Source: Nocardioidaceae bacterium
Lineage (GTDB): Bacteria; Actinomycetota; Actinomycetes; Propionibacteriales; Nocardioidaceae
Assembly (NCBI GenBank): GCA_030655315.1
Contig: JAURVT010000001.1
Coordinates: forward strand, 62,001-126,000
DNA length: 64,000 bases
Reading direction: 5' to 3'
A program made the position numbers and the translations under genes. How positions within the stretch are numbered: position 1 is the stretch's first letter; each line of letters opens with the position of its first letter. The notes below the pieces were generated by a model. That model made no database searches and had not been told where the DNA came from. It worked only from the letters and a program-made list of their open reading frames with translations. Below are positions 30,061 through 33,633 of the stretch, in pieces.

Positions 30061-30513
30061 GTGGCCGCGGTCGTGGTGCTCGTCGCGGCCCTCGTGGTCG
30101 CCGTCGTCGCCGGGGCCCTGTACTCGGCGCGCAACGGTCGGTTCGCCCGTCGGACCGACACCACGGAGGACCCCGTGAGCGACGACCGTCCCCGCCTCGA
30201 CGCGTCGGAGGTCGGCGGCGCGCTCGGCGAGGTGGCGACGTTCGTCCAGCTGTCGTCGGCGTTCTGCGCCCCCTGCCGGGCGACGCGACGCCTGCTCGCC
30301 GACGTCGTCACGCGCCGCCCCGGCGTCGTCGCGCTCGAGGTCGACGCCGAGTCGCACCTCGAGCTGGTCCGCCGGCTCGACGTCCTGCGCACGCCCACCG
30401 TCCTGCTGCTCGACGCCGACGGCGTGCTGATCACGCGGTCGTCGGGCCTGCCGCGGCGCGACGACGTCGAGCGGCTCCTCGACGCCGTGGGTGCCCCCGC
30501 CGCCGACCGCTGA
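30061..30513 (+). CDS. Membrane-anchored thioredoxin (ThiX-like)
   Basis: 150 residues. An N-terminal hydrophobic helix (VAAVVVLVAALVVAVVAGALY) precedes a linker and a thioredoxin domain with the redox motif SAFCAPCRATRRLLADV and the cis-Pro region LRTPTVLLLDADGV. The gene is in the position of thiX (Rv0816c) beside glnR in Mycobacterium. It is probably tethered to the membrane; whether the thioredoxin domain faces in or out is uncertain. It likely supplies reducing power to the adjacent sulfur-transfer proteins. Confidence 0.85.
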   Translation: MAAVVVLVAALVVAVVAGALYSARNGRFARRTDTTEDPVSDDRPRLDASEVGGALGEVATFVQLSSAFCAPCRATRRLLADVVTRRPGVVALEVDAESHLELVRRLDVLRTPTVLLLDADGVLITRSSGLPRRDDVERLLDAVGAPAADR

Positions 30514-30592
30514 CGGCCACGCGGTCCGCGTCCAGCATGCGGAAGGCGTGACCACATGTCGAGACGCGAGTGGACCCGCCGTCACCGGTGCC

Positions 30593-30598
30593 TACGCT
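30593..30598 (+). promoter_or_regulatory. -10 box (TACGCT) of the sulfur operon
   Basis: TACGCT, 6 nt, then the ATG of the Cys-rich leader ORF at 30605, i.e. a leaderless small ORF. Confidence 0.55.
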
Positions 30599-30604
30599 GG
30601 TTCC

Positions 30605-30685
30605 ATGCCTCGCACGACACACCTGACCCGACGACGCGCAGTGGACCACTGCCGCGTCCGTTCGGCGCTGTGTCCGTCCTGCTGA
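30605..30685 (+). CDS. Cys-containing leader peptide (probable attenuator ORF)
   Basis: A 26-codon ORF starting MPRTTHLTRR and ending RSALCPSC, with Cys at 16, 23 and 26, so its last residue before the stop is Cys. It starts leaderless, 6 nt after a TACGCT box. It resembles the short actinobacterial leader peptides with RRxVDxxRVxSxxC patterns found before sulfur-assimilation genes, and the Cys-rich leaderless ORFs reported as cysteine-responsive attenuators in mycobacteria. A GACCCC/GGGGTC hairpin follows 13 nt after the stop, ahead of DUF4395-sulfurtransferase-sseC. Ribosome stalling at Cys codons probably controls that operon. Confidence 0.7.
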   Translation: MPRTTHLTRRRAVDHCRVRSALCPSC

Positions 30686-30698
30686 TCTTGAGCGACCT

Positions 30699-30715
30699 GA
30701 CCCCTCGGCGGGGTC
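30699..30715 (+). promoter_or_regulatory. Hairpin between leader ORF and DUF4395
   Basis: GACCCC (30699-30704), loop TCGGC, GGGGTC (30710-30715). It sits between the leader stop and the AGGAG of the next gene, and could act as an attenuator stem or a ribosome-stall-sensitive structure. Confidence 0.5.
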
Positions 30716-30740
30716 GTCCCCTCGTCACGCAGGAGCCTGC

Positions 30741-31199
30741 ATGTCCACGCACCCCGGCACCGTCGACCCACGCGGTCTGCGCCTCGGCGCCGCGCTGACG
30801 TCGGTCGTGCTGGCGGTGTCGCTCGGCACCGCGGGCGTGGCGCCGGCCCTGTCGACGACGCTGCTGGTGCTGCAGACGGCGGTGTTCGCGCTCGGCGCCG
30901 GCCTCGGACCGGCACGCAGCCCGTACGGCCTGCTGTTCAAGCACCTCGTGCGCCCACGTCTCGGCGCGCCCAGCGAGCTGGAGGACGCGCGTCCCCCGCG
31001 CTTCGCCCAGGCCGTCGGCCTGGCGTTCGCGGTGCTCGCCCTCGTCGGCGTCGTCACCGGGGCGTCGGTCCTGACGCTCGCCGCCCTCGCGCTGGCGCTC
31101 GTCGCCGCGCTGCTCAACGCCACGGTCGACCTGTGCCTCGGGTGCGAGACCTACCTGCTCTACCGCCGGCTCGTCCCCCGGGAGGCCGCCGGAGCCTGA
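30741..31199 (+). CDS. DUF4395 membrane protein
   Basis: 152 residues. It begins with VDPRGLRLGAALTSVVLAVSLGT, then VLQTAVFALGAGLGPARSPYGLLFKHLVRPRLG, a paired helix region, and ends with a Cys-x-x-Cys motif in ATVDLCLGCETYLLYRRL. DUF4395 proteins are small inner-membrane proteins encoded with thiosulfate sulfurtransferases and thioredoxins; the CLGC pair suggests redox or persulfide chemistry at the membrane. AGGAG precedes the ATG. It is the first structural gene after the leader peptide. Confidence 0.85.
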   Translation: MSTHPGTVDPRGLRLGAALTSVVLAVSLGTAGVAPALSTTLLVLQTAVFALGAGLGPARSPYGLLFKHLVRPRLGAPSELEDARPPRFAQAVGLAFAVLALVGVVTGASVLTLAALALALVAALLNATVDLCLGCETYLLYRRLVPREAAGA

Positions 31200-31291
31200 C
31201 GGGGCCCACGCCCCCGCTCGTACCGCCCCGGTCGCCGCGACCGGACGCACCAGACACCGAACGCGCCTCGGCGCAGACAGGAAGGAACGCC

Positions 31292-32140
31292 ATGAGCCGC
31301 GAGAACGCGCTCGTCACCGCCCAGTGGGTGGAGGACCACCTCGACGACGGAAGCATCGTCCTCATCGAGGTCGACGAGGACACCACGTCCTACGACAAGG
31401 GCCACATCAAGGGCGCCATCAAGCTCGACTGGAAGACGGACCTGCAGGACCCCGTCCGCCGCGACTTCGTGAACAAGGAGCAGTTCGAGCAGCTCCTCGG
31501 CGGCCGCGGTGTCTCCGACACCGACACCGTGGTGCTGTACGGCGGCAACAACAACTGGTTCGCCGCCTACGCCTACTGGTACTTCAAGCTCTACGGCCAC
31601 GACGACGTCAAGCTGCTCGACGGTGGCCGCAAGAAGTGGGAGCTCGACAGCCGTGAGCTCGTCGCCGACGTCCCCAGCCCCGAGGCCAAGACCTACACGG
31701 CCAAGGACCAGGACCTGTCGATCCGCGCGTTCCGCGACGAGACCGTCGAGGCCATCGGCGTCAAGAACCTGATCGACGTCCGCAGCCCCGACGAGTTCGC
31801 CGGCCGCCTGCTGGCCCCGGCGCACCTCCCGCAGGAGCAGGCGCAGCGCGGTGGCCACATCCCCACCGCCGGCAACGTCCCGTGGAGCAAGTCGGCCAAT
31901 GACGACGGCACCTTCCGCAGCGACGACGAGCTCAAGCAGCTCTACGCCGACGCGGGCCTGGACACGTCGAAGGACACCATCGCCTACTGCCGCATCGGTG
32001 AGCGCAGCTCGCACACCTGGTTCGTGCTGCACGAGATCCTCGAGCTCGACAACGTCAAGAACTACGACGGCTCCTGGACCGAGTACGGCTCCCTCATCGG
32101 CGTCCCCGTGGCGCTCGGCGACGAGCCCGGCGAGGCCTGA
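31292..32140 (+). CDS. Thiosulfate sulfurtransferase (tandem rhodanese, CysA2/SseA type)
   Basis: 282 residues with two rhodanese domains. The inactive N-terminal one is VLIEVDEDTTSYDKGHIKGAIKLDWKTD, and the C-terminal one has the persulfide-bearing Cys233 in IAYCRIGERSSHTWFVL. It transfers sulfane sulfur from thiosulfate to an acceptor such as cyanide or a thiol. Mycobacterium encodes the near-identical CysA2/CysA3 beside sseC2, as here. GGAAGG precedes the ATG, and sseC starts 2 bp downstream. Confidence 0.93.
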   Translation: MSRENALVTAQWVEDHLDDGSIVLIEVDEDTTSYDKGHIKGAIKLDWKTDLQDPVRRDFVNKEQFEQLLGGRGVSDTDTVVLYGGNNNWFAAYAYWYFKLYGHDDVKLLDGGRKKWELDSRELVADVPSPEAKTYTAKDQDLSIRAFRDETVEAIGVKNLIDVRSPDEFAGRLLAPAHLPQEQAQRGGHIPTAGNVPWSKSANDDGTFRSDDELKQLYADAGLDTSKDTIAYCRIGERSSHTWFVLHEILELDNVKNYDGSWTEYGSLIGVPVALGDEPGEA

Positions 32141-32142
32141 GC

Positions 32143-32439
32143 ATGTGCGGAGCCACGCAGGGCGGGCCCAGCCTCGAGGGCATCGACCTCTCCAAGGAGG
32201 CCGTGATCCAGGGCGTCGTGACCAAGGGTGACGAGCCCGTCGGCAACGCCTACGTGCGTCTGCTCGACAAGACCGGCGAGTTCACCGCCGAGGTCCCCAC
32301 CTCGGCCACGGGCCAGTTCCGGTTCTTCGCCGGTCCCGGCGAGTGGACGCTGCGCACCCTGGCGCCCCGGATCGACCCCGTCGACCGCTCGGTCGTCGCG
32401 CAGGTCGGCTCGGTCGCCGAGGTCGTCGTCGCCGTCTGA
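32143..32439 (+). CDS. sseC: SseC, DUF1416 protein
   Basis: 98 residues beginning MCGATQGGPSLEGIDLSKEAVIQGVV and ending in a beta-sandwich typical of DUF1416 (GNAYVRLLDKTGEFTAEVPTSATGQFRFFAGPGEWTLRTLAP). The Cys at position 2 is conserved in this family as I know it. SseC is invariably linked to CysA-type sulfurtransferases in actinobacteria, but its molecular role is not defined. It is probably a partner or acceptor in sulfur transfer. It is the last gene before a strong terminator. Confidence 0.93.
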   Translation: MCGATQGGPSLEGIDLSKEAVIQGVVTKGDEPVGNAYVRLLDKTGEFTAEVPTSATGQFRFFAGPGEWTLRTLAPRIDPVDRSVVAQVGSVAEVVVAV

Positions 32440-32464
32440 CGCGTCCCGATCACCCAGCACCACG

Positions 32465-32505
32465 ACGAAGGCCCCGGCCCCCGCGAGGGGGACCGGGGCC
32501 TTCGT
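32465..32505. terminator. Strong bidirectional hairpin terminator
   Basis: Arms ACGAAGGCCCCGG-CCCCC and GGGGG-A-CCGGGGCCTTCGT around GCGA: 18 base pairs with one bulged A. It lies between the convergent sseC and LCP-family genes. Confidence 0.85.
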
Positions 32506-32514
32506 GCGTCTGGA

Positions 32515-33633
32515 TCAGCTGACCTCGCGGTCGCTCTTCAAGCCCTCGTCGGGGTAGTCGGCGAGGTAGGAGGCGAGGTCGTCGTCCTTGAGCGCGGTGA
32601 AGAGCTCGTCGGCCTTGATGTCGTCGATGTTCACGATGCTCGCGCCGTTGTCGGCGGTGCCGAAGCCGGCCGTCGGCGTCGTCAGGAAGGTGACGTCGTC
32701 GGAGCGCAGGCTGCGCATCGCGAACGCGAGGCCGCGGATGTCGCCGTTGGTGAAGTCGGCGTCGACGGTGAGGTTGCTGGTGACGGCGCCGAGCGCGGCG
32801 TTGAGGCGGCTCGGGTTGGTCAGCGTGTCCTGGCTGAGCATCTTCTTCATCAGGGCGCGGATGAAGTTCTGCTGGCGGGCGATCCGGTCGAAGTCGCCGT
32901 TGGCCAGGCCGTGGCGGGTGCGGACGTACGTGAGGGCGCGCTTGCCCTGCAGGTTGGTCCAGCCCTTCTTCCAGGTGAGCTCCTGCGAGGAGTCGTAGGT
33001 GGTCTCGGGGATGTAGACGCGGACGCCGCCGAGCGCCGTCGACAGCTCCATGAACCCGTTCCAGTCGATCATCGCGAGGTGGTCGATGCGCAGGTTCGTC
33101 AGGTTCTCGACCGTCGAGATGGCGCCGCCGGGGCCGTAGTAGCTGAACGCGGCATTGGCCTTGTCCTGCCCGCGCTCCTCGCCGTCGGCGTCGTAGATGT
33201 CGATCAGGGAGTCACGCGGGACCGAGACGAGCTGGACGTCCTTGCGGTCGGCCGAGACGTGCATGACCATCATCGTGTCGCTGCGGTACTTGCCCGACGG
33301 CCACTCGGCCTTCTTCAGGTCGGCGGTGATGCTCGCGCGTCCCTGGTTGTCGCCGTCGGTGCTGGAGTCGGCGTCGGCACCGAGGAGCAGGATGTTGAGC
33401 GCCTGCCCCGGCGCGGGGTCGGGCCGCTCGTCCTCGCTCAGGCCACCGGTCACGCTGACGCGGTCGACGTTCCCGATCTTGCCGTTGAGCATCAGCGCGT
33501 ACGCGGCGCCTCCGGCGGTGGGCACGAGCAGCGCCATCGTCACGATCGCGACGATCCAGTGCCGGCGCACCCACGAGCGGCGCTTCGGCGCGCGCCGCTT
33601 CCCGGCTCCGGCATAGCTGCTGGCGTGGCTCAT
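32515..33633 (-). CDS. LytR-CpsA-Psr (LCP) family glycopolymer ligase
   Basis: 372 residues. A basic cytoplasmic tail (KRRAPKRRSWVRRH) and one membrane helix (WIVAIVTMALLVPTAGGAAYALML) precede the extracellular LCP domain. Visible motifs are LNILLLGADADSSTDG, YRSDTMMVMHVSADRKDVQLVSVPRDSLIDI (the Asp and Arg residues that bind pyrophosphate-lipid) and TYVRTRHGLANGDFDRIARQQNFI. LCP enzymes join lipid-linked glycopolymers to peptidoglycan (or arabinogalactan in mycobacteria). It may attach the polysaccharide made by the glycosyltransferase cluster in this window. Confidence 0.92.
   Translation of the reverse strand: MSHASSYAGAGKRRAPKRRSWVRRHWIVAIVTMALLVPTAGGAAYALMLNGKIGNVDRVSVTGGLSEDERPDPAPGQALNILLLGADADSSTDGDNQGRASITADLKKAEWPSGKYRSDTMMVMHVSADRKDVQLVSVPRDSLIDIYDADGEERGQDKANAAFSYYGPGGAISTVENLTNLRIDHLAMIDWNGFMELSTALGGVRVYIPETTYDSSQELTWKKGWTNLQGKRALTYVRTRHGLANGDFDRIARQQNFIRALMKKMLSQDTLTNPSRLNAALGAVTSNLTVDADFTNGDIRGLAFAMRSLRSDDVTFLTTPTAGFGTADNGASIVNIDDIKADELFTALKDDDLASYLADYPDEGLKSDREVS

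Follow-up and report, generated by a model that had tools for sequence, protein, structure and literature searches.

In attenuators of the trp and leu type the supply of aminoacyl-tRNA is read by a ribosome on the leader, and rare codons serve as sensors in leu leaders. Mycobacteria reportedly carry polycysteine leaderless short ORFs, a subject on which Canestrari et al. are said to have published in 2020. According to the available text of Shell et al. 2015 (PMC4633059), a small ORF that ends in Cys codons is conserved upstream of cysA2/Msmeg_5788, and attenuation is suggested there. The sections available of PMC9031893 report, citing Canestrari et al., that contiguous Cys codons in M. smegmatis ORFs regulate downstream translation with cysteine supply. 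This regulation is termed translation attenuation in the accessible part of PMC13236596, and for M. tuberculosis that of PMC9094748 lists six ORFs predicted to be Cys-rich and regulatory; the portions available of PMC9386245 and PMC11133741 added nothing on cysteine leaders. The class is known from mycobacteria, and the interesting part of the present locus and its relatives is a UGU rule together with a conserved peptide.

The window, meaning the whole 64,000-nucleotide stretch of DNA that was analyzed, contains a short Cys-containing ORF in front of a sulfur-transfer operon. The features of the locus, with the basis for each in brackets, are as follows.

30593..30598, + strand: TACGCT, a -10-like box (sequence; TANNNT conserved in homologous leaders)
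30605..30685, + strand: leader ORF of 26 codons plus TGA, MPRTTHLTRRRAVDHCRVRSALCPSC (sequence, family match, relatives)
30616..30621, + strand: GACACA, predicted to form the 5' arm of helix P1, within the ORF (folds)
30669..30674, + strand: TGTGTC, predicted to form the 3' arm of helix P1, sharing bases with the UGU codon (folds)
30671..30673, + strand: TGT codon of Cys23, proposed sensor codon (TGT conservation in homologous leaders)
30677..30682, + strand: TCCTGC, codons 25-26, predicted anti-Shine-Dalgarno including the terminal Cys codon (fold; complement enrichment)
30699..30715, + strand: GACCCC-TCGGC-GGGGTC hairpin (sequence, fold)
30729..30735, + strand: GCAGGAG, Shine-Dalgarno region of the DUF4395 gene, with AGGAG at 30731-30735 (sequence, fold model)
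30741..31199, + strand: DUF4395 protein, operon gene 1 (PF14340, E 6.5e-39)
31292..32140, + strand: tandem-rhodanese sulfurtransferase (PF00581, two stretches, E 2.4e-33)
32143..32439, + strand: DUF1416 protein (PF07210, E 3.1e-38)

Six nucleotides (GGTTCC) separate the box from the ATG at 30605. The ORF encodes Cys at positions 16, 23 and 26, stops at the TGA at 30683-30685, and lies 55 nt from the DUF4395 start. The hairpin arms, GACCCC at 30699-30704 and GGGGTC at 30710-30715, are nested between the predicted anti-Shine-Dalgarno and the Shine-Dalgarno. The box, its 6-nt gap, the 26-residue ORF with its three Cys and the hairpin hexamers had all been described in a first-pass annotation of this DNA and are present in the sequence, and the downstream genes that it named (DUF4395, tandem rhodanese and SseC) agree with the Pfam matches. 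We take the DUF1416 gene to be SseC-like and the sulfurtransferase gene to be CysA2. A scan of both strands of the window for TANNNT followed after 5-8 nt by an ATG or GTG opening an ORF of 15-40 aa that contains three or more Cys returned a single ORF, and none was found in 15 first-order Markov simulations of equal length. The ORF at 30061-30513 (+), which ends 80 nt upstream of the TACGCT box, is thioredoxin-like, its matches falling slightly short of the cut-offs (22.0 bits for Pfam Thioredoxin, where 23.5 is required).

The leader ORF matched the NCBIfam model NF042933 (leader_Ms5788A) with an E-value of 7.5e-7 and NF042934 (cis_reg_atten putative leader peptide) with an E-value of 4.6e-4, at scores of 28.7 and 19.7 bits that lie below the respective curated cut-offs of 45 and 27. 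Within the class, 223 of 296 genomes matched NF042933 at E <= 0.01 and 38 exceeded the cut-off, so that the cut-off captures few of the homologues. The peptide can be aligned to the Ms5788A leader (residues 4-24 on positions 4-24 of the 27 in the model), and the two have in common the sequence signature of a leaderless-type start and a place upstream of the sulfurtransferase, often with DUF4395 between. They also share TGT at the aligned Cys: of the 22 leaders in family f7, taken to be the mycobacterial family because of its polycysteine runs, 21 have it. The window leader differs from Ms5788A and the polycysteine leaders in having three scattered Cys and no contiguous Cys run; it further differs from Ms5788A in its predicted anti-Shine-Dalgarno at the ORF end, besides its score below the cut-off. 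On this sequence evidence, the ORF is an Ms5788A-type homologue without the polycysteine run, and Ms5788A-type leaders with dispersed Cys are present in Nocardioidaceae as well as in the greater part of the sampled class. A less similar system is the uORFC-8-2 motif, found upstream of cysS in Rhodobacterales according to the accessible text of PMC8632094; it too is a short ORF with conserved Cys codons, interpreted as ribosome-mediated attenuation, but it belongs to another phylum and has tandem Cys codons, mostly UGC, and an intrinsic terminator.

For the comparison with relatives, a near set was sampled via the sulfurtransferase rather than via the leader. A sulfurtransferase match was found in 51 of 58 related genomes, the source genome among them, and 50 of these were taken, leaving out the divergent match of genome G024; a further 80 named loci were taken among the matches listed from species genomes, including Mumia, Nocardioides, Aeromicrobium, Kribbella, Micromonospora, Actinoplanes, Actinomadura, Jiangella, Nocardiopsis and others. 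A homologous leader was present upstream of the sulfurtransferase in all 131 loci examined, a number that includes the window locus, and merging six with an identical leader stretch left 125 distinct ones. A wide set comprised the matches of 90 of the 223 genomes, hand-picked over 21 families among the matches listed. We also assembled leaders standing before other operons, found with a protein model blind to codons, from which L275, L276, L279, L289, L296, L297, L314 and L324 were dropped as no leader was recognized; after RA[VI]D leaders were set aside and identical cores merged, 49 remained. By eye, the operons behind these leaders include cysteine synthase, a substrate-binding transport protein, cysH and a cysteine-dioxygenase-like gene. 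These leaders, of the Ms4527A (NF042936) and NF042934 type, share with the window leader the motif L-x-x-R-x-[AH]-[VI]-D-x-x-R followed by a Cys encoded by TGT, but they differ in the operons they precede and in carrying H instead of A at core position 6.

A TANNNT box within 5-8 nt of an in-frame ATG or GTG was the test for a leaderless-type start. It was found in 204 of the 215 homologous leaders, at observed distances of 6-8 nt, while shuffling of the upstream DNA gave a mean of 3.05 and a maximum of 7 of 215. Among the leaders of other operons only 11 of 49 passed, which counts against the reading proposed below. The TACGCT box and its conservation suggest that transcription starts at 30605. 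The first-pass idea of a Cys-rich, leaderless-type leader that heads a sulfur-transfer operon and senses cysteine gains support from this signature, from the family homology and from the presence of the leader at every near locus.

We numbered the core of the peptide L1 T2 K3 R4 R5 A6 V7 D8 x9 C10 R11 ... L16 C17 R18, which puts L1 at window codon 7, C10 at Cys16 and C17 at Cys23. The C17 codon was TGT in 125 of 125 near leaders and in 88 of 90 wide leaders, or 210 of 212 distinct leaders overall; the two exceptions (L220 and L226) carried TGT at a different codon of their own Cys run. At C10, TGC was found 192 times, TGT 13 times and a non-Cys codon 10 times (n=215). Across the 125 near loci, the genes for the sulfurtransferase and DUF4395 had 263 TGC versus 5 TGT codons, and the 35 genes of the window had 93 and 8, respectively. 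The leaders before other operons behaved in the same way: all 49 had TGT at the aligned Cys, and their other core Cys was encoded by TGC 18 times and by TGT once. We argue for a UGU rule because 20 families share UGU despite a strongly TGC background, in counts that ignore common descent. The flanks and possible pairing partners vary between leaders, and we therefore read UGU as a decoding constraint. Among 45 tRNA hits in the source genome, the sole tRNA-Cys has the anticodon GCA, so that UGU would presumably be decoded by wobble; the possibility of another tRNA-Cys dedicated to UGU was set aside, as none was among those hits.

Conservation of the leaders extends to the peptide. L1, R4, D8 and C17 were invariant in all 125 near leaders, with R4 written in five codons (CGC, CGG, CGA, AGG and CGT), and in the leaders before other operons R4, H6, D8, L9, R11 and C17 were each present in 49 of 49. 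Over the 18 core codons, 600 random pairs gave a pN of 0.199 and a pS of 0.525, a moderate ratio. Conservation at the amino-acid level with free synonymous codons argues that selection acts on the peptide too. When UGU occupies the A site, residues R11 to R4 would sit 6-13 residues before it, inside the exit tunnel, and the nascent R-x-[AH]-V-D-x-x-R peptide probably strengthens or prolongs a stall at UGU. At core A6 (Ala codon 12, window 30638-30640) the near leaders had GCG 65, GCA 52, GCC 4 and GCT 2 times, i.e. GCG or GCA in 117 of the 123 carrying Ala there; the Ala codons of the sulfurtransferase genes were GCC 1998, GCG 1144, GCA 109 and GCT 81. Ala codon 12 may pair with the UGC of Cys16.

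We propose, with a probability of roughly 65%, that the ORF, a homologue of the Ms5788A leader, is leaderless, senses cysteine and controls translation of the DUF4395-sulfurtransferase-SseC operon. A ribosome would load at the 5'-terminal AUG and translate the leader. When Cys-tRNA is plentiful it would reach the stop and leave, and codons 25-26 would pair with the DUF4395 Shine-Dalgarno, so that translation of the operon is low. Under a shortage of Cys-tRNA, the ribosome would wait with UGU23 in the A site and mask codons 25-26 with its leading edge; the Shine-Dalgarno would then be freed and the operon translated, which amounts to translation attenuation that is on at low Cys-tRNA. As in trp/leu-type and arrest-peptide attenuators, a leader ribosome would read the aminoacyl-tRNA supply, whereas here the proposed output is Shine-Dalgarno release and a conserved peptide surrounds one sensor codon.

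In the predicted fold of the window, codons 25-26 (UCCUGC) form a helix with GCAGGA at the Shine-Dalgarno of DUF4395. A point against the proposal is that the whole leader was not unusually stable (z -1.41), with 20 of 200 shuffles equally or more stable. An Rfam scan of 30400-31300 gave no match up to E 1. A ribosome was modelled by removing everything behind its leading edge from the RNA. The Shine-Dalgarno was predicted to be unpaired at 0.12 with no ribosome, at 0.16 with Cys16 in the A site, at 0.26-0.40 with Cys23, at 0.38-0.55 with Cys26 and at 0.38-0.58 with the ribosome at the stop. The rise at Cys23 over the values with no ribosome and with Cys16 favors the Cys23 model; counting against it, the predicted gain is modest and stalls at Cys26 or the stop free the Shine-Dalgarno equally or more. 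The first-pass annotation had placed the stall at the terminal Cys codon. As a general sensor that codon was discarded, with Cys as the last sense codon in only 28 of 215 leaders; it is the TGT of Cys23 that is nearly invariant. A local role for Cys26 may still be kept in the window genome, because a stall there frees the Shine-Dalgarno in the fold model.

To extend the analysis to relatives we dropped wide locus L208, which had no recognized downstream gene, leaving 214 loci, of which 12 lacked a recognized Shine-Dalgarno or had it at an unsuitable distance; 199 of the remaining 202 were distinct, and 190 had the first gene within 330 nt. Five-nucleotide complements to the locus's own Shine-Dalgarno, starting at +52..+61, were enriched, being present in 57 of 199 loci where the remaining 10-nt bins had 1-12%, with one exception. 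Weighing against the switch are that exception, a further peak at -8..+1 with 22% of the 199, and the 142 of 199 loci with no such complement at +52..+61. When the leading edge was moved from +42 to +60, a predicted Shine-Dalgarno release above 0.2 was obtained for 30 of 190 loci versus 6 of 190 after spacer shuffling, in a scan that used a reduced set of ribosome positions and one shuffle; the mean predicted gain, 0.063 over the 190 loci and 0.04 over 117 near loci, was small and counts against a common switch. An anti-Shine-Dalgarno at the ORF end is thus enriched yet not universal, and other leaders would therefore need different pairings or a different output. We consider the modelled switch plausible in the window locus and only partly supported across relatives. 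The stop codon was TGA in 188 of 215 leaders and the ends listed were mostly xxC-TGA (for example CTCCTGA, GTCCTGA, CTGCTGA and CATCTGA; window 30680-30685), so that the stop often falls within a possible complement of the Shine-Dalgarno.

The same leader with the same sensing of Cys-tRNA could have a transcriptional output, through Rho-dependent or intrinsic termination versus read-through in the 55-nt spacer. The G+C-rich hairpin in that spacer would suit this, as would the perfect stems of at least 6 pairs in 36% of 121 near spacers compared with 21% after mononucleotide shuffling, and the part of PMC13236596 available to us proposes uORF-linked transcription attenuation for other M. tuberculosis operons. 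On the other side, no intrinsic-terminator-like site (a G+C-rich hairpin plus a T run) was found in 30300-32600, an absence that says little since shuffles expect just 0.3, and the hexamers of the hairpin recur in no other near locus. We regard a transcriptional output as unlikely. The hairpin had been given the role of the element exposed or closed by stalling in the first-pass annotation; what stands of this is that stems of such length are commoner than chance, while GACCCC/GGGGTC as a conserved switch was ruled out, the hexamers being peculiar to the window locus among near loci, and for a role as a terminator no site was found. A different account concerns the sensor codon itself: UGU might be kept for RNA structure, as part of P1 with a GAC near the ORF start, and not for decoding, with residue and codon simply following. 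P1 (GACACA/TGTGTC) is predicted at 0.98 in the window, a frame-locked GAC at -7, -10 or -13 is carried by 128 of 212 leaders, compared with 3 and 9 for the remaining frames, and the outer pair -9:53 was canonical in 53 of 85 cases where 32.2 were expected, a level reached in 0 of 200 tree simulations. But the non-partner columns were nearly as high (-9:56 at 1 of 200, -9:54 at 5 of 200), and -8:52, the pair after the outer one, was unremarkable at 31 of 200, which leaves P1 unproven. The covariation is accordingly suggestive but not clean, and P1 itself may form; the first-pass annotation had suggested looking for conserved Cys codons and covarying stems among relatives, and there the ORF and the Cys23 codon are conserved. 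Moreover, the frame-locked GAC arm is absent from 84 of 212 leaders, which keep UGU nonetheless (family f7 has the arm in 0 of 22), and the 49 leaders before other operons have UGU with different flanks. The presence of UGU in leaders that lack the GAC arm, and in those before other operons, leaves RNA pairing with low odds as a full explanation of the codon, and we rate this account as distinctly improbable.

The ORF could also encode a trans-acting small protein or be a passive ORF that delivers ribosomes, with no cysteine sensing. The amino-acid-level conservation (pN below pS) would agree with a functional peptide, and ribosome delivery by upstream ORFs is discussed in the accessible text of PMC4633059. 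A trans-acting peptide would have no need of a fixed synonymous codon at C17 beside a C10 that is TGC in 192 of 215 leaders, though, and the 55-nt gap between the stop and the next start also speaks against these possibilities, as does the cysteine response reported for homologous leaders in the available sections of PMC9031893. We give them hardly any credence, and cysteine sensing by the leader with control of translation is the reading we prefer.

A broader proposal, which we hold tentatively and put a little below even odds, extends this cysteine-sensing reading to the cysteine leaders of Actinomycetes, which would form one superfamily with a single wobble-read UGU sensor and a conserved peptide that primes the stall exactly there. 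UGU would be read by the sole tRNA-Cys (GCA), and the leaders would be more than simple counters of Cys codons. The peptide, L-x-x-R-x-[AH]-V-D-x-x-R-x-x-x-x-x-C, would be akin to an arrest peptide that requires low Cys-tRNA, and the mycobacterial polycysteine run would be an elaboration of the single-UGU design. The UGU rule was not found in the parts of the literature searched, which mostly omits subscription papers, nor did those parts describe a single synonymous codon and part of a peptide that are near-invariant across operons with unrelated flanks. The question raised is whether, in an amino-acid attenuator, charging can be sensed via one wobble codon aided by its own nascent chain.

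Five leaders (L285, L301, L302, L303 and L305) read LWRRVHMDLVRYAGCVCRPSC and carry TGT. In L285 and L301 the downstream gene resembles cysteine dioxygenase by eye, L301 being without an NCBIfam match up to E 0.01; the regulatory sign may differ at the LWRRVHMDLVRYAGCVCRPSC leaders because cysteine breakdown induced by shortage would be odd. The source genome also has a second leader, MLSASTTHLVVRRHVDLGRLRSQMCQGSLDPATA, one of those standing before other operons and located outside the window (G000:C19:64946-64987, - strand; L002 and L370). It matches NF042936 (Ms4527A) below the cut-off of that model, precedes a sulfite/nitrite reductase family gene and cysH, and has TGT at the aligned Cys.
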